A stretch of 64,000 nt of DNA, taken from assembly GCA_025353725.1 (NCBI GenBank), contig JANXOF010000095.1:186001-250000 (forward strand), read 5' to 3'. Position 1 is the stretch's first letter. Every line of letters starts with the position of its first letter. The stretch comes from Polyangiaceae bacterium (GTDB taxonomy: Bacteria > Myxococcota_A > Polyangia > Polyangiales > Polyangiaceae). Shown here one piece after another: positions 5,982-38,040 of the stretch. The notes beneath the pieces were generated by a model, which worked only from the letters and a program-made list of their open reading frames with translations, had not been told where the DNA came from and did no database searches. Made by a program: the position numbers and the translations under genes.

Positions 5982-8096
5982 TCACGGAAGCGGAGAGAGT
6001 AACTCCGTGCCTTTGTTACCCGTCTGGCGCGGGAGTGGAAACTGAAACGACGAGGGAGCGCTCGGTCGACCTAACGTGGCTTCGGCGCTCGCGCTAAGGC
6101 TAGCGCCCGCGGCTTTAGCGGGAACCCACACGACGACGCGTTCGCCCTCGGCAAGAGCGTCGCCTCGACCGCGGCGATTGATGCGCTCCATAAGGTTGGC
6201 GGTGACGCCGTGCGCCGCGCCAATGGATTCGAGCGTATCTCCGGACTTGGCCGATACGACAACCCGCGTTCGTCCCTTATCATCGCAATGCCGAAAGAAG
6301 TCGTCGGTGCCTGGCAGGACGGTACGCACGTCGTCTTGCGAAAGAACAGCGAGCTTCGACAGGTCCGCTTCACGGGGGGGAAACACCTGCATCGTCATGC
6401 CCTCAAGGAGCTTTGCCGCAGGATCAATGTCGTTCCAACGGCGCATCTCATCCGGCGTAACCCGGAAAGCCTCGCAGACCTCACGCACCGTGTCTCCCAC
6501 TTGCACGCGATAGAAAACACGTTTGCGGTCGGGGTAGACGAACGTTTCTTGACGCACGATAACCACGGGCTTTTCGGCGGGTTTCTTGGCGTCGACGGAC
6601 GGTCTATCGGCGGTCATCGACTCCTTCGGGACAAAGAGCACCGTGCCGCCGCGGACGACCTCACCCGCGCCTAGGCCGTTGAGCTCGATAAGGCGCGTTA
6701 TCGATACATGCCGCGCCGCCGCAACTTGTTCGAGAGTTTCCCCGAACTTCACCACGTACCGTTCAGGCAAAGGCTGCTCGCGCTTGGCTTTCGCGAGGCT
6801 TTGCAAACAATCCCCAGATTTGCCGACGGGCACCTTCAGCGGCCAGTCCTCCTGCGAAGGAGGCGTACGCAACGCTCGCAAGTCCGGGTTGAGTTGCTCG
6901 AGGTCTTTCGTCGAAATTCCGCACGTCTGCGCGAGGGTCGCGAACGAAACGCCCGGCCCCACCGTCACGACGTCCGCCTCGAGAGGCGCATCGAGTTTTA
7001 TGTCCTGATATCCGAAATACGCTAGGTTTCGCGAAACGATAGCCGCCGCGAGAATCTTCGGAACGTAAAGCGTTGTCTCCCACGGCAAACTGCCTTCGAG
7101 TTTCGACAGAGCCCAGTAATCGTTTGTATTGTACCGCCGTACGGCGCTACTCACGCCATTCGTTCCCATGTTGTAGCCGGCCATCGCAAGGTCCCAGCTT
7201 CCAAAACGTCGATGAAGATCGGCGAGAAAGTCGGCCGCGGCTTCCGTGGAGGCCGCAAAACTCAACCTTTGATCCGACCACCGATCTTGGGACAGACCGT
7301 AGAGCTTTCCCGTATCTGGCATAAATTGCCAAAGGCCCGACGCGCCGACGGCCGAACGGACAATGGGCTCGAAACCGCTCTCGATCATGGCGAGCCACGT
7401 GAGGTCCGTCGGCAGTCCCTTCTTGAGAAACACTTTTCGTATCGCGTCCCGATAGCGCCCTGAGCGGCGAAACCAGGTCGCGAGCGTCGCGCGACCGCGC
7501 GGGTCGTCTTTGAAAAACTCGAGATACTTCACGAGTCGCGGATCCCATCGGATCGGAAGGTCCGGAAGTTCGAGCTTACTGAGCCAAGCGAGGTCTTTGC
7601 CCGCCACCGTCGCGGGCGGCACGTTTGGGACAGGAAGCGCCGACATGCCGGAGGCGGAAACACGAGGCCCGTCGGTAGAGGAGGCTGACTGGAACGGAAG
7701 GTCTCCGGGCCACGGCGAAGACGGTGCGGCGACGGATGGCGCAAACAGCTCGCGCTCGGCGGCGTGAAGCGCGAGTAGCTCTTGCGATTCAATGCCCGCC
7801 GGCGCTTCCGTTGTCGGCCGCGCCGACTTTGGAGACGCGGAGGTCGAACCAGGCGGTCCGCTTCGCAGTGCCGCCGGAGCGGTTTTTGCGAGTGAAGATG
7901 AAAGCGGCGATTTCCCTGTCACGACCGCAGCAGTCTTGGCCGAAGGCTTTGGCGCGGTGAGTGGCTTCTTCGAGGACGCGAGCGCCTGGCTTGGCGGCGC
8001 GGCTGCGAACGCCCCGCCTGGCAACAAGAAAACCGCGCCCAAAACACTCAGAAACGCAGCGTAGCGCAGCACGTTCCGCCTGTGACTCGCCCTCAT
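5982..8096 (-). CDS. LysM-containing lytic murein transglycosylase (MltD-like)
   Basis: 704 aa from ATG at 8096. A TTG at 8132 would only add residues before a good signal peptide (RASHRR, then a hydrophobic core to about residue 31). A long Ser/Pro/Ala linker leads to an SLT-type domain at about 215-345, with AMIES (catalytic Glu239), GLWQFMP (254-260) and AMAGYNMG. At least three LysM-like repeats follow (about 450-500, 535-580, 625-670), each with the SGDTLESIG / GETLEQVA / GDTVREVC type start. The enzyme should cleave glycan strands of peptidoglycan in the periplasm, with LysM anchoring it to the wall. Domain order matches MltD, though the protein is longer because of the N-terminal linker. 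It is preceded 73 bases upstream by a VanW-family gene on the same strand, so both may serve envelope remodelling. Confidence 0.88.
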   Translation of the reverse strand: MRASHRRNVLRYAAFLSVLGAVFLLPGGAFAAAPPSQALASSKKPLTAPKPSAKTAAVVTGKSPLSSSLAKTAPAALRSGPPGSTSASPKSARPTTEAPAGIESQELLALHAAERELFAPSVAAPSSPWPGDLPFQSASSTDGPRVSASGMSALPVPNVPPATVAGKDLAWLSKLELPDLPIRWDPRLVKYLEFFKDDPRGRATLATWFRRSGRYRDAIRKVFLKKGLPTDLTWLAMIESGFEPIVRSAVGASGLWQFMPDTGKLYGLSQDRWSDQRLSFAASTEAAADFLADLHRRFGSWDLAMAGYNMGTNGVSSAVRRYNTNDYWALSKLEGSLPWETTLYVPKILAAAIVSRNLAYFGYQDIKLDAPLEADVVTVGPGVSFATLAQTCGISTKDLEQLNPDLRALRTPPSQEDWPLKVPVGKSGDCLQSLAKAKREQPLPERYVVKFGETLEQVAAARHVSITRLIELNGLGAGEVVRGGTVLFVPKESMTADRPSVDAKKPAEKPVVIVRQETFVYPDRKRVFYRVQVGDTVREVCEAFRVTPDEMRRWNDIDPAAKLLEGMTMQVFPPREADLSKLAVLSQDDVRTVLPGTDDFFRHCDDKGRTRVVVSAKSGDTLESIGAAHGVTANLMERINRRGRGDALAEGERVVVWVPAKAAGASLSASAEATLGRPSAPSSFQFPLPRQTGNKGTELLSPLP

Positions 8097-12583: not shown

Positions 12584-14065
12584 ATGGGTGAGCGCGGAGC
12601 CGCTTCGGAACTCCCCCGCCCGCGGAGGCACGAAGGCCTCGACGACGAGCTGGCGAAGTGCAACGACGGAGGAGTGCTGAAGGGCCTTGCGGAAGAACAC
12701 TGGGAGACACACAACGCCTCGCGATCGCTGCCGGCATCGCTCACTGAGGGAATTTTTTCGGCGCTCGGTCGCACCTGGGAGCCGAACTTGCCGGTGAAAG
12801 CGTGCGCAGTGCCGCTCTCTCCGGTGCACGTACTTTACGGCGGCGCGCATCTCTATCGCGCGGACTCACCCGCCAAGCTCGGCGCCCTCGCACGCGGGGC
12901 GATGACGACTTGGGGGTCCGTCGATAGCGAATTTGCTGCGGCCGTCGGGATGCGCGCCGAAAGCCACGCAGAGCTTGCGCCGGAGCTCGCGCGACGCGTG
13001 CGCGAGAAACTTGAGCGAGCTCCAGTTGAAAAGCTCTGTATCGACTTCGAGGATGGTTACGGGCCGCGTCCGGACCTCGAAGAGGATGCAGAAGCCATTC
13101 GCACGGCGGAGGAACTTGCTCGTAGCGTAATGGCGGGTAGTCGAGATCCGATCGTCGGCATTCGAATCAAGTCGTTCACCCCCGCAAGCGTAAAGCGAGC
13201 CATCCGAACCCTCGACCTTTTCGTTACCAACCTTGCACGGTGCACCGGCGGCGCCATTCCCGCGAGCTTCACGGTGACGCTCCCAAAAGTTTCGCACTCG
13301 GCCGAAGTGAAAGCGCTGGTCGACATTCTTGCAGCCCTTGAAACAGCGCTCGGGTTGAAACCTCAGAGCCTAGGCATCGAGCTCATGATCGAGACGCCTC
13401 ACGCATTGGTGAGTTCGGATGGCCGTTTCGTGCTGCGTTCGCTGGTCGAGGCGGCAAAAGGTCGTGCCGTGGCCGTACACCTTGGCGCGTACGATCTTCT
13501 CGCCGCGCTAGGCGTGACGGCAGGCGATCAGCGGTTAGAGCACCCCGCATGTGACTTTGCGCGCGTCGTGATGCAGACATCGCTCGCAGATACCGGAATC
13601 GATATCTATGATGGCGCCACCACGGTTCTGCCTCTCGCTGCGCATCGTTCAGCGTCCGGCCTCAGCTATCACCAGCGCGCGGCGAACGTTGCCGTCGTAC
13701 AGAACGCGTGGAGACTCCACGCAAACGCCGTGCGTCACGCGCTTTCGTTGGGTATCTACCAGGGATGGGACCTTCATCCGGCGCAGTTGCCTGCTCGGTA
13801 CGGTGCACTTTACACGTTTTTCTTGACGGAACGCCGCGCGATGACGGCGCGTCTGCGCGCGTTCGTCGCCAAGGCCACGCAGGCCACGCTTTCTGGACAG
13901 GTGTTCGACGACGCAGCGACAGGTCAAGGGCTCTTGAATTTTTTTATCCGCGGCGCCTTTTGCGGGGCTCTTTCGGATGAGGATGTTCGCGCGACGGGAC
14001 TTTCGGTGGATGAACTGAACGCGCGTTCGTTCGCTTCGATCGCCGCCGCACGGCGCGAACCATGA
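12584..14065 (+). CDS. HpcH/HpaI-like aldolase family protein (DUF6986 type)
   Basis: 493 aa from ATG 12584. The start is uncertain: the first 60 residues are weakly conserved in appearance and a later start is possible. The core looks like the citrate lyase beta / HpcH TIM barrel: LCIDFEDGYGPRPD (acidic metal-binding strand, about 149-162), GIRIKSF, TLPKV, LGIELMIETPHAL and VAVHLGAYDLLAALGV. These enzymes use Mg2+ and 2-keto acids or acyl-CoA substrates such as glyoxylate. The exact reaction cannot be read from sequence. In Streptomyces I recall relatives next to allantoin-degradation genes, which would fit the purine operon about 5 kb away; this link is inference. It overlaps the next gene by ATGA (14062-14065), so the two are translationally coupled. 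Confidence 0.68.
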   Translation: MGERGAASELPRPRRHEGLDDELAKCNDGGVLKGLAEEHWETHNASRSLPASLTEGIFSALGRTWEPNLPVKACAVPLSPVHVLYGGAHLYRADSPAKLGALARGAMTTWGSVDSEFAAAVGMRAESHAELAPELARRVREKLERAPVEKLCIDFEDGYGPRPDLEEDAEAIRTAEELARSVMAGSRDPIVGIRIKSFTPASVKRAIRTLDLFVTNLARCTGGAIPASFTVTLPKVSHSAEVKALVDILAALETALGLKPQSLGIELMIETPHALVSSDGRFVLRSLVEAAKGRAVAVHLGAYDLLAALGVTAGDQRLEHPACDFARVVMQTSLADTGIDIYDGATTVLPLAAHRSASGLSYHQRAANVAVVQNAWRLHANAVRHALSLGIYQGWDLHPAQLPARYGALYTFFLTERRAMTARLRAFVAKATQATLSGQVFDDAATGQGLLNFFIRGAFCGALSDEDVRATGLSVDELNARSFASIAAARREP

Positions 14066-15939: not shown

Positions 15940-16022
15940 TTAGCTAGGTAACGTCACCAAAGGACAGGCCGAGCCTCGGCGAAAGTGTACAGTCCGCGGC
16001 AGTATGAAACGGCCATCGAACT
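15940..16022 (+). repeat. Downstream copy of the duplicated 5' region (start of the 5'-nucleotidase gene)
   Basis: Partner of 15251-15333. It includes the last 63 bases upstream of the 5'-nucleotidase start and its first six codons (MKRPSN). Here the frame continues into the functional gene. The two copies bracket the relics at 15383-15883. Confidence 0.75.
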
Positions 16023-17791
16023 CGCACGGTATCATCGTGGTCACGCTCAGTCTTAATGTCGGTCTCGGTCTGGGCGGCGCGAGCGCTCTGAGCGGCTGCG
16101 GCGTATCTCGTTCTCTTGGCGCGGCAGAGCCCCTACACACAAGCACCGCGGTCACCAAGCCCGACCCACTCTGCCTCTCCATCGCGACGTGGAACGACAT
16201 GCATGGGCAGCTCGCGCCCGACGATGTTCAAGTAGACGCAACCGTCGTTCCTGCGGGCGGCGTCGTCGCGCTCGCCGACCAACTCGCGGCGCTACGCGCG
16301 ACGGGCGACGCGGTCATAGCACTCGACGCCGGAGACTTGTTCACGGGCCCCCTCGACTCCACCCTCGCCGAGGGCGCACCGATCATCGACGCCTACAACG
16401 TCATGGGGGTCGACGCCGCGGCGATAGGCAATCACGAATTCGATTTCGGCCCTGTCGGCTATGCGCGCGTCACGGCAGCGCCTGGCCTTGGCGACGAAGC
16501 AGGGGGGAATGGTCCACGCGGAGCGCTCTTCGCTCGGATGCAGTCTGCACATTTTCCGTTTCTCTCGGCCAACGTCCACCGCACCGATGGGGCCCCTGTC
16601 GGTTGGCCTCACGCGCACGCCTCGACGCACATTGTCAGGGGCGGCTTCGACGTGGGCGTAGTCGGGTACACGACGATCGACGCCCCGACGACGACGCTCA
16701 AGCAAAACGTCGTAGGCTTGGATTTTTCGACGAACGCTGGGTTTTCCGTCGGATCTGAGGTTCGCGAGTTGCGGGCTGCCGGCGCATTTCCCGTGGTCCT
16801 CCTCGCGCATGCGAGTCTCGACGGAGACCTACCTCAGCGCTTGGACGACCCCTCTGATCCAGAGGGAACAAAGCGAGAAGGGGAGCTCGCACACTTGGTC
16901 GACGCCATGCCACGCGGCGATCGGCCCGACGTCATCGTCGCAGGTCACCGCCACCAGTGGATGCTTGGTCGGCTCCGCGGCATCCCCGTGGTCTCGAGTG
17001 ATCAGCACGGCGTCGGACTCACGCGCATTCGTTTTTGCCGCGCGCCGCGCTCGGCCTCCGGTGTCGCGCCCATCGCGAGAACGCTCGATCGCGTCGATCG
17101 CTACGTCGCTATGGCGTCGAGTCCGCCGGTTTCAGAGCTCGGTCGAGCCGTCGCCGCAGCTGTCGCGCCGTGGCAGGCACGCGTGAAGGCGGAGGCCGAA
17201 ACGCTCATCGCGACGTTGCCTCGAACCTGCGCCGCGAAAGCTCGCAACGGCACGGCACTGACCGAGCAAACGGCGCGCGCAGTGGCAGAACACGCCACGG
17301 CTTCCGCGCGCGGGGTCGCCGTGGTCGGGCTCGTCAACAGCGGCAGCGTGCGTAGCCCGCTTCGCGCGGGTCAGTTGCGCTACCGCGACATTTTCGCGAC
17401 GTCACCGTTCGAGAGCAGCATCGCCGTCTGCACGACGACGCGCGCGGGCCTTCTCCGCGCTCTCACGAACGCCGTCAGCACGAGCGAGGCACTCGAACGG
17501 CTCCCGTTCGGGATCGCCGGAGCGAAAGTATCACTCAAGCGCGCCTCGAGCGGCGCGGTCAGCGTTTCGAGCGTCGTTTTAGACAACGCGAAAGGCGCAG
17601 CGCGGGACGACGATCCTGTCCAACTCGTGACGTCCGACTACCTCCTCGCGGGAGGCGACGGGTTCCTCGACGGCGTTACCTGCACGACCACGACCGCAAC
17701 CCCAATGCGCGTGCGAGATGCATGGAAAACCGTTCTAAGTCGAGAGCAATCCTGCGACGGCCCGCCGAAAAACGTCACGTTTAGCGACTAG
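16004..17791 (+). CDS. 5'-nucleotidase / UshA-like metallophosphoesterase, lipoprotein
   Basis: 595 aa. The leader ends ALSGC, a good lipobox, so it acts outside the cytoplasmic membrane. The N-terminal metallophosphatase domain (about 58-335) shows all dimetal motifs in order: WNDMHGQL, DAGDLFTG, GNHEFDFG, LLAHASLDG and AGHRHQW. The C-terminal 5'-nucleotidase domain (about 390-560) has the substrate loop NSGSVRSPLRAG and the aromatic stacking region near ATSPFESS and LAGGDGFLDG. It should dephosphorylate 5'-nucleotides and release nucleosides. It converges on the urate-degradation operon, a sensible neighbour as it feeds purines into catabolism, though it is not in the same transcript. The duplicated start region upstream is discussed separately. 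Confidence 0.88.
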   Translation: MKRPSNSHGIIVVTLSLNVGLGLGGASALSGCGVSRSLGAAEPLHTSTAVTKPDPLCLSIATWNDMHGQLAPDDVQVDATVVPAGGVVALADQLAALRATGDAVIALDAGDLFTGPLDSTLAEGAPIIDAYNVMGVDAAAIGNHEFDFGPVGYARVTAAPGLGDEAGGNGPRGALFARMQSAHFPFLSANVHRTDGAPVGWPHAHASTHIVRGGFDVGVVGYTTIDAPTTTLKQNVVGLDFSTNAGFSVGSEVRELRAAGAFPVVLLAHASLDGDLPQRLDDPSDPEGTKREGELAHLVDAMPRGDRPDVIVAGHRHQWMLGRLRGIPVVSSDQHGVGLTRIRFCRAPRSASGVAPIARTLDRVDRYVAMASSPPVSELGRAVAAAVAPWQARVKAEAETLIATLPRTCAAKARNGTALTEQTARAVAEHATASARGVAVVGLVNSGSVRSPLRAGQLRYRDIFATSPFESSIAVCTTTRAGLLRALTNAVSTSEALERLPFGIAGAKVSLKRASSGAVSVSSVVLDNAKGAARDDDPVQLVTSDYLLAGGDGFLDGVTCTTTTATPMRVRDAWKTVLSREQSCDGPPKNVTFSD

Positions 17792-17848: not shown

Positions 17849-19504
17849 TCATTCCGCGCGAAAGGTAAACGCCACCTGCGTGGTCTTGCGCGCTTCGATG
17901 ACGACCTTCTGCGACTGACGACCAAAAACCTCATGCCACGCCTCGAGTTCGTAGTCGCCCGCCGGAAGATTGCGGAGATCGACGTCCCCCGTCTCGTTCG
18001 AAACTGCGAAAAAAGGATGCGGGACAATACCAAGAAACGCAGACATCCACGGATGAACGTCGCACTTTGCGCGCACCATCACTTCCTCCGTGTCGAAGGT
18101 TTTCGCAAAGCTCGTGTCCTTCGTGGGCATCATATCGTTGAAGGTCAGATTATGTTCGGCGACGGTGCGAACGTTGTGGAGCACCGGGTCGCTATTTAGA
18201 AAAACGACTTTTTGGCCTACGCGCGCGCCGACTACGTGCGGGTGGTATACGCATCCTTTTTGGTCCATGACCACCGGCGCGTCGGGCAGCTCTGCTCCTT
18301 TAAAGGCCTCGAGACCTCGCTTCACGTAAACGAAGGAGTTTCTCAGCTTTTTGTCCTTCACTAAAACCGTATCCGCGTGAACCGCCCCACTCCCGGGCGC
18401 GGCTGTCGACGTGCACGTACCAAGGTTCAGCTCCCTATTGGCTGGAGCCTCACCCTCGAGCCGAACGACGCCCTTCAACTGCCCCACCGTGGCCTCGTTG
18501 GCCACCTGTTTTACGCCGCCCGTACTGGCGGGCTCCGTCGCGTTTGCGGTCGCACCGCTACCCGAGGCACCCACATCGCCGCTCGCCGAAGAGGACGACG
18601 ACGTGAGCGAGGAGTGCGTGACGGTCAAAGCGGCAGCCAAGACGGCAATCAAGATTCCCGGCGACAGGTCTTTCACCTTGTTCTGGACGTGCCGAACGGA
18701 CGAACCAACGACCATGAGCCCCGCGAGGATAACCCAATTGTAACGGCTGCCGTACACACCGGGGAAATGGTTACTCAACATGATGAGCACCACGGGGTAC
18801 GTCATGTAATTATTGTGCCGCGAGCGGGTCTTTGCGTGCTTAGCAAGATTGTCGTCGGGCCTCCGTCCGGCCGTCACCGCCGCGACAAGCCCTTTTTGAG
18901 CCGGAATGATGTGAACCCATACGTTCGTCGCCATCCACGTCCCCATCATGGCGCCGGTCATTAGAAAGGCTGCGCGCCCGCTGAGAACGCTCGAAAGTTG
19001 CCAAAGAACGATCACGACCAACGCGTAGGTCACGGCGGCGCCCACCACCATGTGGTTGCGAATGGGCGAGCGCCAAAGAACGTCGTATACGAACCACGAA
19101 CCGATAAGCGTCGCGATGCAGACGCCGGTGGCGGCCGTAGAACTTAAACTCGAAACGTTAGGGTCGATGAGCGTCGCACCGCCGCCCTGAAAAAAGACGA
19201 TATCAAGGAGCAGCCATCCCGTGAGAAGCGTAAAAGCGGCCTCCCACTTAAACCAGTGGAGCCGTTTGGGCATTTCCGCGGGCGCGATAAGCTTTTTCTC
19301 GACATGGTAGAACCCACCCGAGTGCACCATGAAGAGCTCGCCATCAACTCCTTTTCTTCCGTCGCTTTCGCCATCGACTTTATCGAGATGGCCGTCCAGC
19401 CAGTTGAAGAAGATCGAACTGCCAATCCACATGATGCCGCTGATCACATGTGCCCAGCGAACGAAAAGGTTGAGCCACTCAGTGACGACTGCGCCAGAAA
19501 ACAA
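17849..19504 (-). CDS. PuuD-type membrane urate oxidase with C-terminal cupredoxin-like domain
   Basis: 551 aa. Residues 1-300 match the membrane domain of PuuD urate oxidase (Urate_ox_N): RWAHVISGIMWIGSSIFFNW (17-36), GVDGELFMVHSGGFY (52-66) and MPKRLHWFKWEA (78-89), with about eight membrane segments. Known PuuD continues into a cytochrome c domain with CXXCH; none is present here. After a Ser/Gly/Ala linker (300-335) there is instead a beta-rich domain (340-551) with a probable type-1 copper site: His443 in LHNV, then Cys481, His484 and Met487 in CDVHPWM, the short amicyanin-like ligand loop. It should oxidise urate to 5-hydroxyisourate and pass electrons through copper. It is the last gene of the allB operon, 5 bases after hiuH, and no soluble uricase is visible in the window. 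Confidence 0.85.
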   Translation of the reverse strand: MFSGAVVTEWLNLFVRWAHVISGIMWIGSSIFFNWLDGHLDKVDGESDGRKGVDGELFMVHSGGFYHVEKKLIAPAEMPKRLHWFKWEAAFTLLTGWLLLDIVFFQGGGATLIDPNVSSLSSTAATGVCIATLIGSWFVYDVLWRSPIRNHMVVGAAVTYALVVIVLWQLSSVLSGRAAFLMTGAMMGTWMATNVWVHIIPAQKGLVAAVTAGRRPDDNLAKHAKTRSRHNNYMTYPVVLIMLSNHFPGVYGSRYNWVILAGLMVVGSSVRHVQNKVKDLSPGILIAVLAAALTVTHSSLTSSSSSASGDVGASGSGATANATEPASTGGVKQVANEATVGQLKGVVRLEGEAPANRELNLGTCTSTAAPGSGAVHADTVLVKDKKLRNSFVYVKRGLEAFKGAELPDAPVVMDQKGCVYHPHVVGARVGQKVVFLNSDPVLHNVRTVAEHNLTFNDMMPTKDTSFAKTFDTEEVMVRAKCDVHPWMSAFLGIVPHPFFAVSNETGDVDLRNLPAGDYELEAWHEVFGRQSQKVVIEARKTTQVAFTFRAE

Positions 19505-19509
19505 GGGTG

Positions 19510-19860
19510 TCAGCTCCCGCGGTAGGTCGAATAGCCAAAATCACTGAGTAGGAGAGGAACATGGTAGTGAGCGGCCGCGTCGCGAACCACGAACACAAGG
19601 CTCGCCTCAGGAAAAAAGGCGTCTCTCCCTTGCGCCGCGAGGTACGCGCCGGTGTCGAAGGTAAGCCTGTAGGTTCCGGGCGTAAGCGTGCCCGAGGGAA
19701 CGAGATCGCTCACGCGACCGTCGGCGTCGGTCGTGCGCGGAGACGAAGGCGAGCCCAGAAGCGTGTACTCAGCACCGTCTTTTCTCTCGAGCCTTACGGC
19801 CACGTTTTGAGCGGGCCGGCCCCGCGCGATGTCGAGCACGTGCGTCGACATGGATCTCAT
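19510..19860 (-). CDS. hiuH: 5-hydroxyisourate hydrolase (transthyretin-like)
   Basis: 116 aa, a full-length family member. It hydrolyses 5-hydroxyisourate to OHCU, the second step of urate breakdown. The family signatures are intact: STHVLDIARGRPA with His7, TTDADGR with Arg49, FFPEASLVF, and HYHVPLLLS with His98 and His100. It ends in the invariant YRGS. Its ATG overlaps the stop of alc-uraD by 4 bases, and the urate oxidase follows 5 bases later, so all are made from one message. There is no signal peptide; the enzyme should be cytoplasmic. Confidence 0.95.
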   Translation of the reverse strand: MRSMSTHVLDIARGRPAQNVAVRLERKDGAEYTLLGSPSSPRTTDADGRVSDLVPSGTLTPGTYRLTFDTGAYLAAQGRDAFFPEASLVFVVRDAAAHYHVPLLLSDFGYSTYRGS

Positions 19861-21479
19861 CGGAGCACCAGTTTTTGAAGGCGAAGCGCCGTGATGAGAC
19901 GCTGTTCAGCCGCGGCGACGGCCCATTCCGTGGCCGGATCATGAGCCATACGCGCGGTCGCCATAGCGACCATCTCCGCCACCGTCTTGCCGGTCGCGCA
20001 AACGATGTAGAGGCGTCCGAACTTCGCTTCGTAGGCTTCGTTTACCTCTCGAAGCTCGTCGCGCGCCGCGTGCTCGGCGCCCGAGACGTTTCGCTGCTCG
20101 CTCTCGCTCCACGACCGCGCGAGCGCACTCTGGTGGGCCTCGGCCTGCGTCTCGCCGATGCGGGGGTGAGCACGGAAAGCCTGGTCCCACGCGGCCGTAT
20201 CGAGCGCGTCCCACAACTCCCCCGCTCGCGTCGTGAGCGCCGCCAATCTCGCGAAGGACATCGGACTTCGCCGTCGCTCGTCGCTCATGGCGGTCACCCA
20301 TGCCTCGGAGCCGCAGCACGCCTTCAGTGCGGCTGCGAGGTCCACGTTGGACATCGCCCGCAGGTAAGCCATCCCCACTCGTTCCCGTCCGAGGTCACTC
20401 CCAACGCCGAAAAGTCGTAACCGACTCACTCCGCCATCAGGCCAAATGCGCATGCGCACGTGCGTCGCGTCGACCTTGGCCCCTGGCGATCGCGCGAGTT
20501 CGTCCTCAAATGTATGCAACGTGTGTGGCTGAAGCCGCTCTTTTGGGAGAAGAGGCACCCAGCACGAGGCGTCGCTCACGCCGTCGGGGCATGGGTCTCC
20601 GGGGGCTACGCGTGCTACGTCGAGCGAGGCAAAATCGGGGGCGTTTCCTTTGAAATGAAGCGTATCGAGGACGGCGCGCTCGACGTGGCCCGCAGCCGCG
20701 AGCCGAAGGACGACCCAATCCGGCCCCTCTCGACGACCGCGCTTCGTCTCCCAACCGTCGCCCATGTTCACGCCACGGCCCGGCATAATCAGGTTGTGGC
20801 GTGACCCAAAGAACATGTCATTGCACGCGACCACGTGGGCGCCATACTCGGCCGCTGCGAGATCAACGAGCTGGGGACGGCTGCGATGGCCGAGCCACCC
20901 CGCGCTCGGCATCACCTCCCCGTGCACGCGCAACCTGGCTACGCCCCCGTCGGGAAAGATGTGGAACCGAAGGTGCGTGAATCGCTCTTCAGAATGGACC
21001 TCGAAGACGTTGCGAGAGCCGCCCTTGAGAGAGGCCTGGTCGCGGCTGAGCAGCGGTGTCCATACGAGGGTATCGCAGAGCAAGCTCTCGAGCGACGGAT
21101 GACCGTCAAGAGAGACCCCCTCGACCGCGCATTCGGACGGATAGTTACCCGTAAAAAAAGACGTATCGACGACGAAGGCGCGAACAATGCCGGGCAGCCC
21201 AAGACGCACGATGGCGGAGTCGAAAAGCGGACGCGGGGCGTGCGTCGAGAGCGGACATTCATACGCGTGCTCGCGGCGACGGCGCGACTCCCAGCCGTCC
21301 ATCCACTTTCCGCGGTCCGTATACTTACCCTCGATAAAGACAGGCGCGTGCTCTTTGAGAAGGTTGTCTTTGCTGGCAAAGAAGTCGTCCGTCGCGTGAA
21401 GGACGGAGCCGCCAAGGCGCTCGGCAGCGAGGTCGACGAGCTGCGTAAGCGGATGGGCATCCGTGCGTAGTACATTCAT
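19857..21479 (-). CDS. Allantoicase fused to OHCU decarboxylase
   Basis: 540 aa carrying two enzymes. Residues about 10-190 and 200-358 are the two beta-sandwich repeats of allantoicase; the repeats are visible as DLAAERLGGSVLHATDDFFA and DLAAAEYGAHVVACNDMFFG, each followed by DGWE and later HIFPDGGVARLR / RIWPDGGVSRLR. Residues about 372-540 are OHCU decarboxylase (UraD): AHPRIGE with the catalytic His438, WSESEQRNV, and NEAYEAKFGRLYIVCATGKT. The allantoicase part cuts allantoate to ureidoglycolate and urea; the UraD part makes S-allantoin. These steps are not consecutive, since AllB acts between them. The start overlaps the allB stop by ATGA. Both domains look complete. Confidence 0.93.
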   Translation of the reverse strand: MNVLRTDAHPLTQLVDLAAERLGGSVLHATDDFFASKDNLLKEHAPVFIEGKYTDRGKWMDGWESRRRREHAYECPLSTHAPRPLFDSAIVRLGLPGIVRAFVVDTSFFTGNYPSECAVEGVSLDGHPSLESLLCDTLVWTPLLSRDQASLKGGSRNVFEVHSEERFTHLRFHIFPDGGVARLRVHGEVMPSAGWLGHRSRPQLVDLAAAEYGAHVVACNDMFFGSRHNLIMPGRGVNMGDGWETKRGRREGPDWVVLRLAAAGHVERAVLDTLHFKGNAPDFASLDVARVAPGDPCPDGVSDASCWVPLLPKERLQPHTLHTFEDELARSPGAKVDATHVRMRIWPDGGVSRLRLFGVGSDLGRERVGMAYLRAMSNVDLAAALKACCGSEAWVTAMSDERRRSPMSFARLAALTTRAGELWDALDTAAWDQAFRAHPRIGETQAEAHQSALARSWSESEQRNVSGAEHAARDELREVNEAYEAKFGRLYIVCATGKTVAEMVAMATARMAHDPATEWAVAAAEQRLITALRLQKLVLR

Positions 21480-22879
21480 GTGGACAAAGATCTCCTGAGC
21501 CAGCGGCCGCTTGGCGTGCTAAGAAAACCTTGCCCACGCTCGTAAATCGTCTCGCCGCGAAGGAGGGTCCGCACCACCCTCCCGCGAAGCGCGCGGCCCT
21601 GATAAGGCGTAATTTTATGACGATGCTCGAGTGTCGCGGCGTCGATAACGTGCTCGGCGTCAGGGTCCCAAAACACGAGATCCGCGTCACACCCAACAGC
21701 TATCGCGCCTTTTCTCCCGGTGAGCCCCGCGAGGCGCGCCGGCGCTTCGCTCATCCACACCGCCATGTCGTGTGGCGTAGCACCGCGCGCACGCGCGCCG
21801 GTCCAAACTGCGGAGAGCCCAATTTGCAACGACGAGATTCCGCCCCAGGCTTTCATGAAGTCTCCCGAACCCGAGCACTTCATCACGGCCGACGAAGGCG
21901 AATGATCGGTGACGACTTGGTCGATAAGACCCTCCCGAAGTGCACTCCATAAGAGTTCGCGGTTCGCTCCTTCGCGAATGGGAGGCGCGCATTTGAAAGA
22001 GGTCGAACCGTCCGGGATCTCCTCCGCCGCGAACGTGAGATAGTGCGGACACGTCTCGACCGTGAGCGGCACGCGCGCTTCCCGTGCGCGGCGCACGGTC
22101 GTGAGGGCATCGGACGACGACAGGTGAACAATGTGCGCGCGGCAGCCCGTCTCCTGAGCAAGGCGAAAAACGAGTTCGACCGCGGCGTTTTCCGCCGTCC
22201 GCGGACGTGACCGAAGAAACGTTTCGTAGCGCCTCGGGTCGAGGCCGAGACTGGCTCGCTCACCGTCGCTGAGCGGTTCTGGCAATTCGGCGTGAACGAA
22301 AAGCGGCGCCCCGAGTTCCGCTATCGAGGCCATCCCCGCGCGAAGCTCGCTCTCGTGAACGTGAGAAAATTCGGCGACGCCGCTCTCGGCGAGAAAGCAC
22401 TTGAACGCCAACACGCCTTCGTCGAAGAGCGCGCGCAAGCTTCCCTTCGTGTTCGCATTCGAGGGGACCAGCCCTCCGCAGAGAGCGACGTCGACACGCG
22501 CGTTTTGCTCGAGCGCTCGAACCTTCGCACAGAGCCCCTCGAGCGTCGTGGTGGGAGGAACACTGTTGAGCGGCATATCGACCAGCGTCGTGACGCCTCC
22601 TGCCGCAGCCGCGCGGGTGGCGGTCGCGAAGCCTTCCCAGTCCGTGCGGCCGGGCTCGTTGATGTGTACGTGCGTGTCGACAAGACCAGGCAAAACGATG
22701 AGGTCTCCGGCCTCGAGCGTCACGGCATCCGACAGATGCGTCGGACCAGCCTGCGCGTACCGAGGCCGGAGTTCGGTAACCGCGACGATGATGCCGCCTG
22801 CGACGTGCACTTCGGCCGGGCGCGGCCCTGAAGGCGTCATGACACGAGTTCCGCGAATCACACAATCGACGCGAGCCAT
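21476..22879 (-). CDS. allB: Allantoinase
   Basis: 467 aa from ATG 22879 (MARVDCVIRG), the usual allantoinase length and N-terminus; the open frame extends further but over the opposite gene's promoter. It is an amidohydrolase-superfamily metalloenzyme: DTHVHINEPGRTDWEGF carries metal His70 and His72, FKCFL holds the bridging Lys160, FVHAE the next His196, then AHIVHLSSS and VTDHSP for the remaining ligands. It opens the allantoin ring to allantoate. It is the first gene of the minus-strand operon allB, alc-uraD, hiuH, urate oxidase, and faces a kinase gene across a 73-base gap. Confidence 0.93.
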   Translation of the reverse strand: MARVDCVIRGTRVMTPSGPRPAEVHVAGGIIVAVTELRPRYAQAGPTHLSDAVTLEAGDLIVLPGLVDTHVHINEPGRTDWEGFATATRAAAAGGVTTLVDMPLNSVPPTTTLEGLCAKVRALEQNARVDVALCGGLVPSNANTKGSLRALFDEGVLAFKCFLAESGVAEFSHVHESELRAGMASIAELGAPLFVHAELPEPLSDGERASLGLDPRRYETFLRSRPRTAENAAVELVFRLAQETGCRAHIVHLSSSDALTTVRRAREARVPLTVETCPHYLTFAAEEIPDGSTSFKCAPPIREGANRELLWSALREGLIDQVVTDHSPSSAVMKCSGSGDFMKAWGGISSLQIGLSAVWTGARARGATPHDMAVWMSEAPARLAGLTGRKGAIAVGCDADLVFWDPDAEHVIDAATLEHRHKITPYQGRALRGRVVRTLLRGETIYERGQGFLSTPSGRWLRRSLST

Positions 22880-31674: not shown

Positions 31675-33234
31675 ATGAACTCGTTGCCGTCGCCTTACCG
31701 CCTTATTTTTGCGCTTTCCAGCGCGTCAGCGTGTGGCGTGTTCGGTGGCGATGAAGACACGATCGCCGCTCCTTCTGCCATGCCCAGCTCCGACGACGCG
31801 GGCGCTGCCTTGGTCGGCGGCCCGGCGAACCCAAACGACGTCACCAACGCGCGCGGGATTTTTGTCGCGCCTCACGGCGCCGAGAGGGCGGATGGCTCCT
31901 CCGAACATCCTCTCGCCCGAATTCAGGCAGGCGTTGAGCTCGCACAATCGGTCGGAAAACGCGTTTACGTTTGCACGGGGACATACCGCGAAACACTCAC
32001 GGTCGCGAACGGCGTGTCAGTGACCGGCGGCCTCGCGTGCAGTGACGGGGCGTGGCGCCTCGGCGGCCTGCGCTCACGCGTCGACGCACCGTCGAGTCCC
32101 GCCGTCCGCGCCATCGGTATCGACACCCCTACCCGCCTTGAAGCTTTGGAGATCTTCGCCCCCACAGCGTACGTGCCGGGTGCGAGTTCGATAGCGCTTT
32201 ACGCCGCACACGCGAATGCACTCGTCATCGCCAACGCACACCTCGCCGCGGGCCATGCCGCAAACGGCGAAGATGGCACTTCGGCCATTCAATTGGAGCA
32301 AGCTTCGACCGCGCATGGCAGTCCGTCGATTCATGCCTACGAGTGCAAAAATCCGTTTTTGATGTGCGCGGGAGCAGCGGCGTTTACGCCAACTCGAGCC
32401 GCTTCTGGCACAAACGCTTGCCTCGGCCCACGGGGATTCGCAGGGGAATCCGGAGGCTATGGGGGAGCCGGCGGAACATGGCGAGTCGTCCCGCGCCCCG
32501 CCGCAGCCGAGCCGAACCCGGACCTAACATTCATGTTTACCGTGTTCGATTCCTACGCCGAACCGGGAGAATCAAATCGGACGTCTGCCGACGGTAGAGA
32601 CGGAGGTTCTGGACGAAACGGAGCCACGATAGGGGCGTTCTCGGGTGACACTTACCTTCCTGCAGACGGCACCGCAGGCGCTGATGGTTCGCCCGGATTC
32701 GGTGGCGCGGGTGGCCGCGGCGACGTCCCGGCAGAAGGTCGAGCGCGACCGAGCGATAACCTGTGGGTCGGGAACGCCGGAGCGAGCGGCGGCGCGGGCG
32801 GGTGTCCAGGTCTCGCGGGCACCGCGGGAAAGGGGGGCGGGGCAAGCGTTGGAGCGCTTCTGGTGGAGAGCACCGTGACGCTTGACGGAACCGTCGTGAC
32901 GGCAAGCCGAGGGGGCCAGGGAGGCTTAGGGGCCTTCGGAAGCTCGCCGAGCGTGGGGGGTCGAGCCGGCGCCAACGAGACAGGTCTTGCTCAACTCTCC
33001 GCCAAGCCCGGAGGCCGTGGCGGCCAGGCTGGAACGAGCGGCAATGGAGGCAACGGTCCTTCCGTCGCGCTAGCGCACACCGGCGCGGCGCCGAACCTCG
33101 AAGGCGCTACGCGACTGGTCGCAGGCGAAGGAGGCGCGCCCGCCGTCGCCCGCACGCGAACCGACGCGCTTGGCCTTACGCGCGCCATTTCTGCGACTGC
33201 CGCAGGTCTAGCAAAAGCGATACTCGCGCTATAG
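31675..33234 (+). CDS. Exported glycine-rich protein with parallel beta-helix-like start
   Basis: 519 aa from ATG 31675; the GTG at 31651 adds residues before the signal peptide. The leader ends SSASAC, a weak lipobox. Residues about 60-120 resemble the DUF1565/pectate-lyase-like start of beta-helix proteins: GIFVAPHGAERADGSSEHPL and VYVCTGTYRETLTV. The rest is rich in Gly/Ala/Asn with GGAGG, GNGGNG and GGRGG runs, as in surface-exposed repeat proteins. It is probably surface-located and structural, with unknown function. Its stop shares the hexamer CTATAG with the stop of the convergent xanthine dehydrogenase gene. Confidence 0.72.
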   Translation: MNSLPSPYRLIFALSSASACGVFGGDEDTIAAPSAMPSSDDAGAALVGGPANPNDVTNARGIFVAPHGAERADGSSEHPLARIQAGVELAQSVGKRVYVCTGTYRETLTVANGVSVTGGLACSDGAWRLGGLRSRVDAPSSPAVRAIGIDTPTRLEALEIFAPTAYVPGASSIALYAAHANALVIANAHLAAGHAANGEDGTSAIQLEQASTAHGSPSIHAYECKNPFLMCAGAAAFTPTRAASGTNACLGPRGFAGESGGYGGAGGTWRVVPRPAAAEPNPDLTFMFTVFDSYAEPGESNRTSADGRDGGSGRNGATIGAFSGDTYLPADGTAGADGSPGFGGAGGRGDVPAEGRARPSDNLWVGNAGASGGAGGCPGLAGTAGKGGGASVGALLVESTVTLDGTVVTASRGGQGGLGAFGSSPSVGGRAGANETGLAQLSAKPGGRGGQAGTSGNGGNGPSVALAHTGAAPNLEGATRLVAGEGGAPAVARTRTDALGLTRAISATAAGLAKAILAL

Positions 33235-36200
33235 CGCACCGTCGCCGTCACGGGTACGGCGCGCAACGCGCCTCGTTATCGCATCGAGGATCGCTTCATG
33301 GGTCGCCGGCGACGCAAGCGGAACGTCACCTACCGGATCGCCGAAGGCGGCGATGGCATCGCGAAGCGCTTCGCGCACGCTGATCGCCAGCATCAGCGGC
33401 GGCTCACCGACCGCCTTGCTCCCGTGGACCACGCCATCCTGAGCGGCTTTCTCGAGGAGCGCCACGTTGAACCGCTCCGGCGCGTCTCCCATCGTCGGAA
33501 TCTGGTACGTGCTCGCGGAATGCGTGAGAAGCCGGCCCTCGGGGCTCCACTTTAGCTCCTCGCCGGTGAGCCAGCCCATGCCTTGGACGAATCCGCCCTC
33601 GATTTGACCTCGGTCGACCGCAGGGTTCAGGGACTCGCCTACGTCGTGGAGAATATCGACAGCCAAAACACGTTTCATACCGCTATAGCCGTCGACCTCT
33701 ACCTCGCTCACCGCGGCGCCATACGCAAAGTAGTAAAAGGGTTTGCCCTTTCCTTTTGCCTTGTCGTAGCCAATCCCTGGCGTGCGATAAAAGCCGTTCG
33801 CCGAGAGTTGGACTTGCTTGATGTACGCGCGTTCCACGACGCGTTCGAACACGACTTCGACATCGGGTGCCTGCGGAGCACGCGCTTTGCCGTTTTCGAA
33901 GAGGACCGCGCCCTCGGGTATCGCAAGTCCCGATTCAAGCTCGATAAGCTCCGCCGCGATAGGCGCGAGCCGTTCGCGTAGTGTGACACACGCGGCTCGT
34001 ACCGCCGCTCCGTTGAGGTCCGAACCACTCGACGCGGCCGTCGCTGACGTATTCGGGACCTTGTCGGTTTGGGTACGCATGACGCGAACGGAAGCCGCCG
34101 GCAGTCCCAGCTCGCGCATCGCGACGCCCTGAATCTTCGTGTAGAGGCCCTGCCCCATCTCCGTACCGCCGTGGTTCACTTGGACCGTTCCGTCGCGGTA
34201 GATGAGAACAAGCGCACCTGCCTGGTTCAGCCACGTCGCGGTAAACGAGATACCGAACTTCACGGGCGTCATCGCAATGCCACGTTTGATACGGGCACTT
34301 CTCGCGTTCCATGCATCGATTTCGACACGCCGCTCGGCGAACTTCGAGCTCGCGAGCAAAGCGCCCCATATCTCGGGTATGCGCTCGTCGCCCAGCTCCT
34401 GCCCGTAGTGCGTGGTGTTGGTCTCACCCGAGCCGCGGTAAAGGTTTCGCTCGCGAACCACCTCAGGCCGAAGTCCGAGATGCCGCGCGACTCGGTCGAG
34501 AATGTCCTCCATCACGAGCATGCCTTGCGGGCCTCCGAATCCACGAAACGCCGTGTGGGAGCAGACGTTCGTTTTCGCAACGCGCCCCGTGAACCTCACC
34601 GCGGGTACGTAATAGGCATTATCCAGGTGAAAAAGCCCGCGATCGCAGATAGATTCCGATAAATCGAGCGCCCATCCGCCATCTGCGAAAAGGTCAATGA
34701 CAGCGCTCGAAAGCTTCCCGACCGCGTCAAATCCGACACTGTAGCGGGCGTAGAACGGGTGACGCTTCCCCGTCACGCTCATGTCGACGTCGCGATCGAG
34801 TTGCACCCGCACCGGGCGCCCGGTGCGGTTCGCCGCGAGTGCGACCATGGCCGCCCAGGCATTGCCTTGCGTCTCTTTTCCGCCAAAACCGCCCCCCATA
34901 CGCGGCGACTGCACCGTCACTTTGTTCCGCGGAAGGGCAAGTACATGCGCGACAACCGCCTGCACCTCGGTCGGGTGCTGCGTGGACGACGAGACAAAGA
35001 TCTCTCCATCTTCGCCGCTCTCGGCCCACGCCGCCTGGGACTCGAGATAGAAGTGCTCCTGACCTCCGATCTCAATCTCACCGTCAAGTCGATGCGTACT
35101 TCGCGCGAGCGCGTCTTCGCTATCGCCGCGACGGATCACATGCGGCTGCGTATGAAACGATTTGCGCGCGAGCGCCTCACGGAGCCCGACGACAGCCTCC
35201 GAAGGCATAGGCGCATATTCGACCTTAACCTTCGCCGACGCGCGGCGGCAGGCGTCGAGCGACGTCCCCACGACGAGCGCGACGACTTGGCCGTGAAAGT
35301 GTACCTCCTCCTTCGCGAAAAGCGGCTCGTCGTGACGAACCGCACCGACGTCGTTTCGCCCCGGAACGTCTTTCGCCGTAAGCACGCAAGCAATTCCCGG
35401 TGCGTGCTCGGCCTCGCTCGTATCGACACTCAGGACGCGCGCGCGAGCGTGTGGACTCATCACTGGCCACACCTCGAGCATCACTCGGCGCCGCGCGACG
35501 TCATCGACGTAGAGCGCGCTCCCGGTCACGTGTCCCACCGCGCTTTCGTGGGTCAAACTCCGGCTGGGATCGTGGCTGGTCCCGGGCAGACTTGCACCGT
35601 AAACCTCGTCATTCCCGAAGGAAATGGCTACGTCCTGCGCGCCGCTCGTATCGCCCCGAAAGAATTTTTCGAAAAGGTTCGCCACGAGCTCGCGCCGAAA
35701 CGCGGCACCTGAGCGAACGTCATCGAGCGGCGTGAACTCCGCGCGCAGCAGGACCTGCGCCGCGCGCATCGTGCTCTCGTTCCAGACCTTACCGAGGAGA
35801 AACGCCTCTGTACTGAAGGCGCGGACCGGCATCGCGGCGACTCCGCCGTACGCGAGCCGCACGTGGCCTATCACGTCGTCGTCATCGGTATCTATAACGA
35901 ATGCCGCAGCCACAATGCTGATATCGAGTTCACGCCGCTTAGAGACCTTGTACGAATCCATCCGACGACGCGCCCGCGCGGCAGTGGGCACATGGCGCGG
36001 CACATGAATGTCGCGGACCATCTCGTCCGGTGCGAGAACCGTTTTACGATAGGCCACGAAAAAGTCCGCGAGAGACAGCGTCCTCGTCGCCCCTCGCTTC
36101 GCGAGAACTACGCTCGCGTCGAGCGCGAGCATTATCGGAGCCATATCTCCGATGGGAGAAGCCGTGACCAGGTTGCCGGCGAGCGTCGCGCGGTTCCGGA

Positions 36201-37086
36201 TTTGCCGCGACGCGAAGGCCCAGAGCATCTTGTCGAACATCGGGTATTCACCCGCGAAGGCCTCCTCGACATGCGTGAGAGTCGCGGCGCCTCCGACAGT
36301 GAACGCCAATTCGCTTCTCTCGATACGCGAAAGCTCCGAAATCCCCTCCGTAGAGACAAGTCGCGGATACGCCCGACCTTGCTTGTTAATCGCGACGCCA
36401 ATTTCTGTCGCGCCCCCCACGAGCTCGGCGCTAGATCCATAGGTTGCCTTGAGTTCGAGCAAGTCATCGAGCGTCGTCGGACGAGAAAATGACTCGCCTG
36501 AGGCGCTCTCGTACACAAGAGCGGGTATGCAGCCATCGTTCTTCTTCAATCGAAGCTGAAACACATCCACTGACGACGACCGCTGCGCGAGGGCCGAGAG
36601 CATCGCCTCGCGAATCGGCCGGTAGCCCGTGCAACGACAGAGATTGCCATTGAGCTGGTCACCGACGCTTTCCTTCAACCGACGCGAAGTACCAAGGTCA
36701 TCGCGATAGAAAGCCTCGAACATCGACAGAACGAAACCTGGAGTGCAATACCCGCACTGCGACCCGTGGCACGCGACCATCGCCGCCTGCACCGGGTGAA
36801 GCGTTCGATCGCTCGCGGCAACCCCCTCCACGGTGACAACCTCGCGACCGGCGACCATCGGCAGGAGAAGGATGCAGCTATTGACCGCGCGGAACGTTCG
36901 CTGCCCGCGCGCGTTCGTGTCCACCAACGCGACGGTGCAAGCTCCACAGTCCCCCTCGGCACAGCCCTCCTTGCTCCCGGTGTGACCGTTCGCGCGGAGC
37001 CAGCTCAGAAGTGACGTGGTCGCAGACTCTCCGTTGACGCGAACAGTCTGGCCGTTGAGAACAAAGTCGAAAGCCGACGCAACCAT
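33229..37086 (-). CDS. Single-chain xanthine dehydrogenase
   Basis: 1285 aa from ATG 37086. All cofactor domains are on one chain, as in eukaryotic xanthine oxidoreductase. Iron-sulfur I: Cys42, Cys47, Cys50 and Cys71 (GCAEGDCGACTVAL). Iron-sulfur II: Cys111, Cys114, Cys150 and Cys152 (GSQCGYCTPG, NLCRCTGYRP). FAD domain about 200-460 (LVGGATEIGV, LAGNLVTASPIGDMAP). Molybdopterin domain from about 520: GGQEHFYLES, MGGGFGGKE, AFRGFGGPQGM and the catalytic Glu1228 in VGEPPL. It oxidises hypoxanthine and xanthine to urate with NAD+. Most bacteria split this enzyme into XdhA and XdhB. The accessory gene xdhC lies 120 bases upstream on the same strand. It supplies urate to the operon at 17.8-22.9 kb. 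Confidence 0.93.
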   Translation of the reverse strand: MVASAFDFVLNGQTVRVNGESATTSLLSWLRANGHTGSKEGCAEGDCGACTVALVDTNARGQRTFRAVNSCILLLPMVAGREVVTVEGVAASDRTLHPVQAAMVACHGSQCGYCTPGFVLSMFEAFYRDDLGTSRRLKESVGDQLNGNLCRCTGYRPIREAMLSALAQRSSSVDVFQLRLKKNDGCIPALVYESASGESFSRPTTLDDLLELKATYGSSAELVGGATEIGVAINKQGRAYPRLVSTEGISELSRIERSELAFTVGGAATLTHVEEAFAGEYPMFDKMLWAFASRQIRNRATLAGNLVTASPIGDMAPIMLALDASVVLAKRGATRTLSLADFFVAYRKTVLAPDEMVRDIHVPRHVPTAARARRRMDSYKVSKRRELDISIVAAAFVIDTDDDDVIGHVRLAYGGVAAMPVRAFSTEAFLLGKVWNESTMRAAQVLLRAEFTPLDDVRSGAAFRRELVANLFEKFFRGDTSGAQDVAISFGNDEVYGASLPGTSHDPSRSLTHESAVGHVTGSALYVDDVARRRVMLEVWPVMSPHARARVLSVDTSEAEHAPGIACVLTAKDVPGRNDVGAVRHDEPLFAKEEVHFHGQVVALVVGTSLDACRRASAKVKVEYAPMPSEAVVGLREALARKSFHTQPHVIRRGDSEDALARSTHRLDGEIEIGGQEHFYLESQAAWAESGEDGEIFVSSSTQHPTEVQAVVAHVLALPRNKVTVQSPRMGGGFGGKETQGNAWAAMVALAANRTGRPVRVQLDRDVDMSVTGKRHPFYARYSVGFDAVGKLSSAVIDLFADGGWALDLSESICDRGLFHLDNAYYVPAVRFTGRVAKTNVCSHTAFRGFGGPQGMLVMEDILDRVARHLGLRPEVVRERNLYRGSGETNTTHYGQELGDERIPEIWGALLASSKFAERRVEIDAWNARSARIKRGIAMTPVKFGISFTATWLNQAGALVLIYRDGTVQVNHGGTEMGQGLYTKIQGVAMRELGLPAASVRVMRTQTDKVPNTSATAASSGSDLNGAAVRAACVTLRERLAPIAAELIELESGLAIPEGAVLFENGKARAPQAPDVEVVFERVVERAYIKQVQLSANGFYRTPGIGYDKAKGKGKPFYYFAYGAAVSEVEVDGYSGMKRVLAVDILHDVGESLNPAVDRGQIEGGFVQGMGWLTGEELKWSPEGRLLTHSASTYQIPTMGDAPERFNVALLEKAAQDGVVHGSKAVGEPPLMLAISVREALRDAIAAFGDPVGDVPLASPATHEAILDAITRRVARRTRDGDGAL

Positions 37087-37206
37087 CAACGCACGATAGT
37101 CGCGGCAGGACCTTCGGCGAGACGAGATTCACCTGAACGCTCAGCGGTGAAGCGACGAGCTTCGTTTTGTGCGATTTTCGACTTCTAGGCTCGGTCGACG
37201 GTGACG

Positions 37207-38040
37207 CTACCTCGCTGTCGAGCGCGACCGTTTCCGCCAGGCGACCATCTCTGCCGCAATCGAAATGGCGATCTCGTCAGGCAAGCGCGCCCCGATTTCG
37301 ACGCCAAGAGGCATACGCACCCGCGCACAGTTCGCTACAGAAACCCCGCGCAATTCGAGCCTTTGCCGCGTGCGCTCGGCCTTGGCGCGGCTTCCGACGC
37401 CCCCTACGAACGCGAAATTACGCGAGAGTGCCCAAGCGATCGCCTGCTGGTCGAGGTGGTGATCGTGGGTCATGACGAGGCAAGCGCCTCGAGGGTCGAC
37501 CGCTCTCATGGCTTCGTCGTCCACCTCGCCCTGATGACACCGGACCCCTGGAAACCGCTCCTCGCGGGCCCATGATTCTCTTCCGTCCACAACGGTCACT
37601 CCAAATCCCAGGTTTACAAGGAGCGGTGCCAACGCTGTGGCGACGTGACCCGCGCCGACAATCAAGCAAGGCACCAAACCGTCTATGGGCTCAAGGAGGA
37701 CTTCGAGCCGACCACCGCAACACATCCCGAGCTCCGCGCCGAGCTTGAACCCGCGAACCTGGTGTTTTGCCGACACGTCCGCGACGACGGCCTGCAACGC
37801 TTCGAGGGTCGCTCGCTCCATGGCCCCTCCCCCGACCGTCCCCACGCACGTGCCGTCTTCCGCGAGGTAGAGCTTTTGCCCCGGTGTGCCTGGTGCTGAG
37901 CCGTGCCGCTCAAGAACAGTCGCCATCGCGCCACGAAGGCCCACGGATGCGCAAAATGCCGCGGTCTTGAGCACGTTTGCCGCACTCGCGGCGCCAGGTA
38001 ACGGGAGTGGCGGCACGTCACCGGGAGATATTTCAATCAC
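37207..38040 (-). CDS. xdhC: XdhC molybdenum-cofactor insertion protein
   Basis: 277 aa from GTG 38040. XdhC binds the molybdenum cofactor, helps its sulfuration and hands it to xanthine dehydrogenase. Visible marks are GSAPGTPGQKL, VGTVGGGAMERATLEAL, LGMCCGGRLEVLLEP, a Rossmann-type GAGHVATALAPL near residue 147, and THDHHLDQQAI. The C-terminal VGGVGSRAKAERTRQRLELRG and DEIAISIAAEMVAW complete the family pattern. It precedes the xanthine dehydrogenase gene and is divergent from glgC across 50 bases. Confidence 0.92.
   Translation of the reverse strand: MIEISPGDVPPLPLPGAASAANVLKTAAFCASVGLRGAMATVLERHGSAPGTPGQKLYLAEDGTCVGTVGGGAMERATLEALQAVVADVSAKHQVRGFKLGAELGMCCGGRLEVLLEPIDGLVPCLIVGAGHVATALAPLLVNLGFGVTVVDGRESWAREERFPGVRCHQGEVDDEAMRAVDPRGACLVMTHDHHLDQQAIAWALSRNFAFVGGVGSRAKAERTRQRLELRGVSVANCARVRMPLGVEIGARLPDEIAISIAAEMVAWRKRSRSTAR

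Follow-up and report, generated by a model that had tools for sequence, protein, structure and literature searches.

The window analysed here, a 64,000-nucleotide stretch of contig JANXOF010000095.1 from a Polyangiaceae bacterium, carries on its minus strand a compact urate-breakdown row. The row consists of allantoinase AllB (21476..22870; TIGR03178 above cut-off, the longest open reading frame starting at 23014), an allantoicase fused to the OHCU decarboxylase UraD (19857..21479; PF03561 and PF09349, with TIGR02961 above cut-off), the 5-hydroxyisourate (HIU) hydrolase UraH (19510..19860; PF00576, E 2e-35; TIGR02962 above cut-off) and a fused puuD-like gene (17849..19504; 551 aa), which begins with TTG 5 nt past the HIU hydrolase stop codon. 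The urate-producing xanthine dehydrogenase, a single 1286-aa chain matching seven Pfam families (33229..37089), and its maturation factor XdhC (37207..38040; PF13478 and PF02625) are found on the same strand at 33229-38040, in a region where open reading frames were picked by codon scoring. The gene row by which PuuD is recognized is thus present in the window, with HIU hydrolase and OHCU decarboxylase genes side by side and no uricase match in the genome, which is 97.55% complete. A gene at 16004-17791, beside the urate row and convergent with it, codes for a protein in which a 5'-nucleotidase C-terminal domain (PF02872) is recognized and which is perhaps a source of purines for this row. A DUF6986 gene (HpcH/HpaI- and malate-synthase-like) is present at 12584-14065 and also near PuuD genes in 35 fetched loci, and its protein may act on glyoxylate or another downstream product. 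By PuuD type, the DUF6986 loci comprise 15 bare, 14 cupredoxin (L124 duplicating L006) and 6 cytochrome loci.

The N-terminal part of the fused protein (residues 6-296; 18617..19489, minus strand) is a Urate_ox_N (DUF989) membrane domain (PF06181, E 5.8e-103), and the motifs on which the earlier note had based a PuuD-type membrane domain, RWAHVISGIMWIGSS and LHWFKWEA, are correct as quoted. Its model displays the eight long helices that are characteristic of PuuD, with low pLDDT for helix 1 and the loop behind it, while the whole-protein model is of middling quality (pLDDT 73.5, pTM 0.52). Lysine and arginine residues number 7, 2, 7 and 3 in the predicted cytosolic loops and 0, 0, 1, 1 and 1 in the predicted outside segments, charges that would agree with the N-out/C-out topology of PuuD and a C-terminus in the periplasm. 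The last membrane helix (283-301 in the model) and a Ser/Ala/Gly-rich linker recognized in the sequence together span residues 283-339 (18488..18658, minus strand), pLDDT being low at 298-318. The membrane domain may be heme-b or HemJ-like in nature; a match of the window domain to PF17240 (E 9.6) was dismissed as noise. Conservation across 108 cytochrome c PuuDs is at least 0.97 for 32 membrane positions; 27 of these positions still reach at least 0.93 in the 27 proteins of the copper form described below, and the catalytic half of the copper forms therefore looks largely intact. Residues R16, H19, W26, G28, H61, R227, N231 and H246 reach 1.00 in the copper forms (n=27), and the remaining five of the 32 positions are looser (S30 0.74, T235 0.78, P79 0.81, H230 0.81 and Y66 0.89).

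The C-terminal part of the protein departs from PuuD. The open frame of the fused gene contains no CXXCH, so that the C-terminal cytochrome c with this motif, which is part of the definition of PuuD, is missing; as the earlier note had described with correct residue numbers, the linker is followed by a beta-rich domain with His443 and a CDVHPWM loop (Cys481, His484 and Met487). The structure prediction advocated in that note yields a cupredoxin fold. The C-terminal domain modelled alone from 32 aligned sequences (pLDDT 93.6, pTM 0.90) matches plastocyanin 7pcy with Z 12.7 (rmsd 1.6, 84 residues) and amicyanins with Z 11.1-11.9, plastocyanins and amicyanins together covering Z 11.1-12.7 over 83-88 residues, and the whole-protein model gives the same cupredoxin answer. 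The cupredoxin core occupies residues 409-494 (18023..18280, minus strand; Z 11.8 to plastocyanin 1jxd). With phmmer, residues 400-488 align with amicyanin (E 0.0017), the HN of His443 and the C..HP.M of Cys481/His484/Met487 standing opposite amicyanin's own HN and C..HP.M. Two features of a type-1 copper protein are found, a predicted cupredoxin fold and, from the sequence alignment, a His plus Cys-X2-His-X2-Met ligand set in amicyanin spacing. The four predicted copper ligands His443 (18176..18178), Cys481 (18062..18064), His484 (18053..18055) and Met487 (18044..18046), all on the minus strand, are invariant in 32/32 homologous domains (27 fused and 5 stand-alone), which otherwise descend to 29% identity with the window domain; because of this invariance, the four-residue pattern exceeds chance. 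The predicted fold, the amicyanin alignment and this conservation all support the amicyanin-type copper site that had been read from the motif. The window protein scores below cut-off for PF00127 (13.5 bits vs 21.2) and, as a whole, for PF13620 (26.1 bits vs 32.3). The latter weak match concerns residues 496-549 (17858..18019, minus strand), where carboxypeptidase-regulatory/transthyretin-like strands follow the cupredoxin core. Since the transthyretin-like C-terminal domain of a carboxypeptidase (2nsm) matches residues 7-217 of the domain model with Z 11.6, the core (about 409-494) appears, in the model, to be nested between strands of a transthyretin-like/carboxypeptidase-regulatory sandwich. 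Outside the four copper ligands, W523-H524-E525 (17930-17938) and Cys418 (18251-18253) are also invariant in 32/32 domains and Cys364 (18413-18415) is kept in 29/32; a disulfide and a second functional site among these residues are possible.

Compared with known copper proteins, the window domain shares the cupredoxin fold of amicyanin and plastocyanin (PDB 4p5r, 1aac, 7pcy) and the His...Cys-X2-His-X2-Met ligand set of amicyanin, but it is joined to a membrane enzyme and, in the model, embedded within a carboxypeptidase-regulatory/transthyretin-like sandwich, with an aligned-core identity of 16% (7pcy) to 24% (4p5r). Chains of the Cu nitrite reductase of Thermus (6hbe) and of the multicopper oxidase of Nitrosopumilus (9cck) match it as well; these are soluble copper enzymes with a catalytic part unrelated to that of the window protein. 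The family of the window domain also includes stand-alone cupredoxins (L068, L071, L075 and L077, and the separate genes of L173, L181 and L182), which display the same composite domain and C-X2-H-X2-M loop, the four ligands and the WHE motif being invariant in the five that were aligned. They differ in being separate proteins with signal- or lipoprotein-like starts, as judged by eye, and among those examined only the cupredoxin of L173 is encoded among urate genes.

The neighbourhood of the fused genes points to urate as the substrate. The fetched flank includes at least one of the genes for HIUase, allantoicase, UraD and AllB in 22 of the 27 distinct fused cupredoxin loci (23/28 with a duplicate; L174 counts through AllB alone), in 69/108 cytochrome loci and in 28/38 bare loci, all these counts being lower bounds as flank lengths differ between loci. 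The corresponding figure for stand-alone cupredoxin loci is 0/7, in a small control whose members are near-identical and have short flanks. Five fused loci (L007, L016, L017, L118 and L152) have none of the four genes in the fetched flank, two of which belong to genomes with an HIUase elsewhere (G076 for L118 and G029 for L152). At the genome level, HIUase is found in 118 of the 377 genomes of a Myxococcota sample, and HIU hydrolase above cut-off accompanies a strong PuuD in 97/102 genomes versus 21/275 without one (Fisher p 5e-62). Fourteen genomes were chosen for a closer look: 10 encode a fused copper PuuD, G373 harbours the split pair of L173, and the PuuD-like genes of G120, G136 and G331 are divergent. 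HIUase is present in 11/11 copper-PuuD genomes of Myxococcota, whether the protein is fused (10) or split (G373), no match to HIU hydrolase was obtained in G120, G136 and G331, and uricase (PF01014) was found in 0/14, the 11 copper-PuuD genomes included. These data bear on the alternative that the protein is an oxidoreductase for some other substrate that merely happens to be located in a purine gene row. Such a reading could invoke the fused genes of L007, L016 and L017, whose fetched flanks are devoid of all four urate genes, and the related L180-L182 proteins, which lack several conserved residues and whose genomes (G331, G120 and G136) lack HIUase. However, the window row needs a urate oxidase in a genome without a uricase match, the fused gene adjoins that of HIUase, and all 11 chosen copper-PuuD genomes encode this enzyme; we consider a different substrate very unlikely.

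The tabulation of C-termini among other Urate_ox_N proteins, which the earlier note had proposed, uncovered cupredoxin, cytochrome c, carrier-free and split forms. It also extends the original claim, since the copper form recurs in other lineages, more than one swap of C-termini has taken place, and the family includes split as well as carrier-free forms. A genome-contig scan with patterns taken from the query itself, which samples its relatives and is no census of architectures, gave 82 relatives; the best 80 of them, sorted by C-terminal motif, comprise fusions to cupredoxin (18) and to cytochrome c (25), carrier-free or incomplete forms (30) and stand-alone cupredoxins (7). Closer to a census is a PF06181 search in 377 Myxococcota genomes drawn evenly from the larger group, 102 of which match strongly (best E at or below 6e-47). 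The corresponding 102 places (the window and 101 fetched) comprise 83 cytochrome c forms, 10 cupredoxin forms (window included), 8 bare or broken forms and 1 cut by a contig end. Four of the eight 'bare' Myxococcota PuuDs (L107, L175, L178 and L179) are broken or partial frames with an adjacent CXXCH frame, and 5 of the 83 cytochrome-type PuuDs (L093, L140, L146, L147 and L148) carry a doubled cytochrome tail, with two CXXCH after the membrane domain. Both searches combined, and after dropping L124 as a duplicate of L006 from all fused-locus counts, 27 distinct cupredoxin fusions are found in Myxococcota, Bdellovibrionota and one Planctomycetota MAG; three of these records are labelled only Proteobacteria or Deltaproteobacteria, group with Bdellovibrionales in trees and were counted under Bdellovibrionota. 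These 27 uninterrupted fused frames rule out a chimera, frameshift or misassembly behind the fused gene. In a plasmid search, 255 records match part of the query (10 among the matches listed), none with a single place covering 80% of it.

The split forms bear on the partnership between both domains. At L173, a Myxococcota locus of the window's own family, a carrier-free PuuD (6067-6864, plus strand) stands among all four queried urate genes, and a cupredoxin gene (5054-5824, minus strand; E 1.4e-64) with a lipoprotein-like start by eye lies between allantoinase and PuuD in the opposite direction to the latter. The L173 cupredoxin groups with the fused domains of L176/L177 (100/100), and its membrane domain groups with those of L176/L177 and of the carrier-free L065 (100/99). 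PuuD and cupredoxin thus occur both as neighbouring genes and as one protein, which is usually a sign of joint action. Two other split pairs are seen at L181 (5950-7552) and L182 (5526-7171), where the Urate_ox_N-like gene is shorter, lacks the HGG and LHWFKWEA residues and is directly followed by a cupredoxin gene whose product has a lipoprotein-like start by eye; the host genomes (G120 and G136) have no HIU hydrolase match, and this pair is possibly a related membrane oxidoreductase for another substrate. Carrier-free PuuDs accompanied by three or four of the urate genes queried are found at L038, L039, L044, L048-L051, L055, L060, L062, L064 and L067, in Acidobacteriota, Ignavibacteriota, Elusimicrobiota, Fidelibacterota and others. 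They end some 25-40 residues before position 300, and neither CXXCH nor a family cupredoxin ORF occurs within 4 kb or up to the locus end. Since many PuuDs in urate rows thus have no carrier, either fused or within 4 kb, the carrier domain is not strictly needed there. Two peculiar frames were met among these loci and their relatives. At L031 (6004-7301), the PuuD frame lacks a carrier and overlaps with a second, separate frame of 184 aa (6747-7301), which contains one CXXCH and is either a split cytochrome partner or a frameshift. At L039 (5665-6792), HIU hydrolase and PuuD read as one continuous 375-aa frame, an odd arrangement if the membrane protein is N-out and its partner enzyme cytosolic.

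The phylogeny of the membrane domain shows that the two types of carrier have been exchanged. All trees are unrooted, so that gain and loss of the copper domain are indistinguishable in them. None of them includes L107, L175, L178, L179, L070, L074, L076, L131 or the duplicate L124. A rapid tree calculated from 166 membrane domains requires 8 changes of the cupredoxin label. A more careful one was built from 84 rows selected by hand (27/27 copper, 42/108 cytochrome and 15/31 bare forms); it requires 5 changes, at least 3 of them forced by well-supported branches, and 0% of 200 bootstrap trees manage with 1. With ten long-branch or hard-to-place rows removed, six of them copper forms, 4 changes are still needed and at least 2 are forced. 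A single clade of copper forms is rejected for the 84 rows (p-AU 3.7e-6), as is the union of the window clade with the Bdellovibrionales clade (p 0.0013, for a pairing chosen after seeing the trees). For the cupredoxin domains themselves, a clade of the 27 fused ones against 18 separate ones is also rejected (p-AU 8e-10). As the copper forms are not one clade, copper and heme have been exchanged more than once, for which one early gain followed by several losses of the copper domain may account. This exchange is relevant to a second alternative, in which the membrane domain reduces oxygen and the C-terminal domain is an accessory scavenger, the copper domain mopping up superoxide like cytochrome c elsewhere. 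Superoxide scavenging by the cytochrome c domain is raised as an alternative in an excerpt of PMC4562309, and the carrier-free PuuDs of urate rows indicate that the domain can be absent. Nevertheless, the repeated exchange of cytochrome c and cupredoxin fits the property that they share, namely one-electron transfer, and L173 retains a cupredoxin gene beside its carrier-free PuuD; a scavenging role is accordingly an improbable explanation. The least probable explanation is a cupredoxin-like domain without metal or with copper in a purely storage or structural role; the PF00127 match below cut-off could be taken to point to it, but all four ligands are invariant in 32/32 sequences at identities down to 29%.

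We thus favour a PuuD-like membrane urate oxidase (urate dehydrogenase) in which a fused periplasmic type-1 copper domain probably serves as electron outlet in place of cytochrome c. The cupredoxin outlet put forward in the earlier note is supported by the predicted fold and ligands, the gene context, the co-occurrence with HIU hydrolase and the L173 pair, and we infer from these copper binding, urate as substrate, the direction of electron flow and the next acceptor. By analogy with PuuD as presented in the excerpt of PMC4562309, urate would be oxidized to 5-hydroxyisourate at the eight-helix domain on the cytosolic side, and this product would be passed on by the HIU hydrolase, UraD, allantoicase and allantoinase of the same gene row. 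The electrons would cross to the periplasm and be taken singly by Cu(II) held by His443, Cys481, His484 and Met487, from which they might reach a c-type cytochrome or directly a COX1-type terminal oxidase. The window genome contains one COX1 match and 11 Cytochrome_CBB3 matches; as 7 of the latter are above cut-off, the idea that copper replaces the cytochrome for want of c-type heme was rejected.

The known system closest to this protein is PuuD of Agrobacterium fabrum (Atu2314; COG3748/DUF989/PF06181; excerpt of PMC4562309), with which it shares the Urate_ox_N domain, most conserved residues, pathway neighbours and a C-terminal redox domain predicted outside the membrane. In contrast to PuuD, it has no CXXCH and a predicted type-1 copper domain takes the place of the cytochrome c; it would work like PuuD while lacking the cytochrome that defines it. 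In the excerpted text of that 2015 study (PMC4562309), CXXCH is described as strictly conserved in all PuuD sequences, the cytochrome c is called invariant, and full-length DUF989 proteins are said to additionally contain cytochrome c. The present sequences contradict an invariant cytochrome c in PuuD as a general rule, and a copper-linked PuuD was not found in literature searches covering titles and abstract openings among the matches listed. The eight-helix domain of PuuD is probably a general membrane urate dehydrogenase with interchangeable outlets: a single or double cytochrome c, a type-1 copper domain acquired several times independently, a neighbouring copper lipoprotein in at least one urate operon, or no fused carrier.

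To conclude, the natural replacement of heme by a predicted copper site, together with the split pair, offers a direct test of how PuuD hands off its electrons. The excerpt of PMC4562309 leaves this step open; there, azide gave no sign of a specific respiratory coupling and over-expression of the cytochrome-form PuuD in E. coli was not seen. A type-1 copper domain should be strongly coloured and independent of heme-c maturation, so that production and monitoring of the copper form may prove simpler than with its cytochrome counterpart. If the proposed function is true, the swap itself indicates an electron-transfer role of the C-terminal domain, and the copper form would connect purine breakdown with the respiratory chain in a way not yet described.
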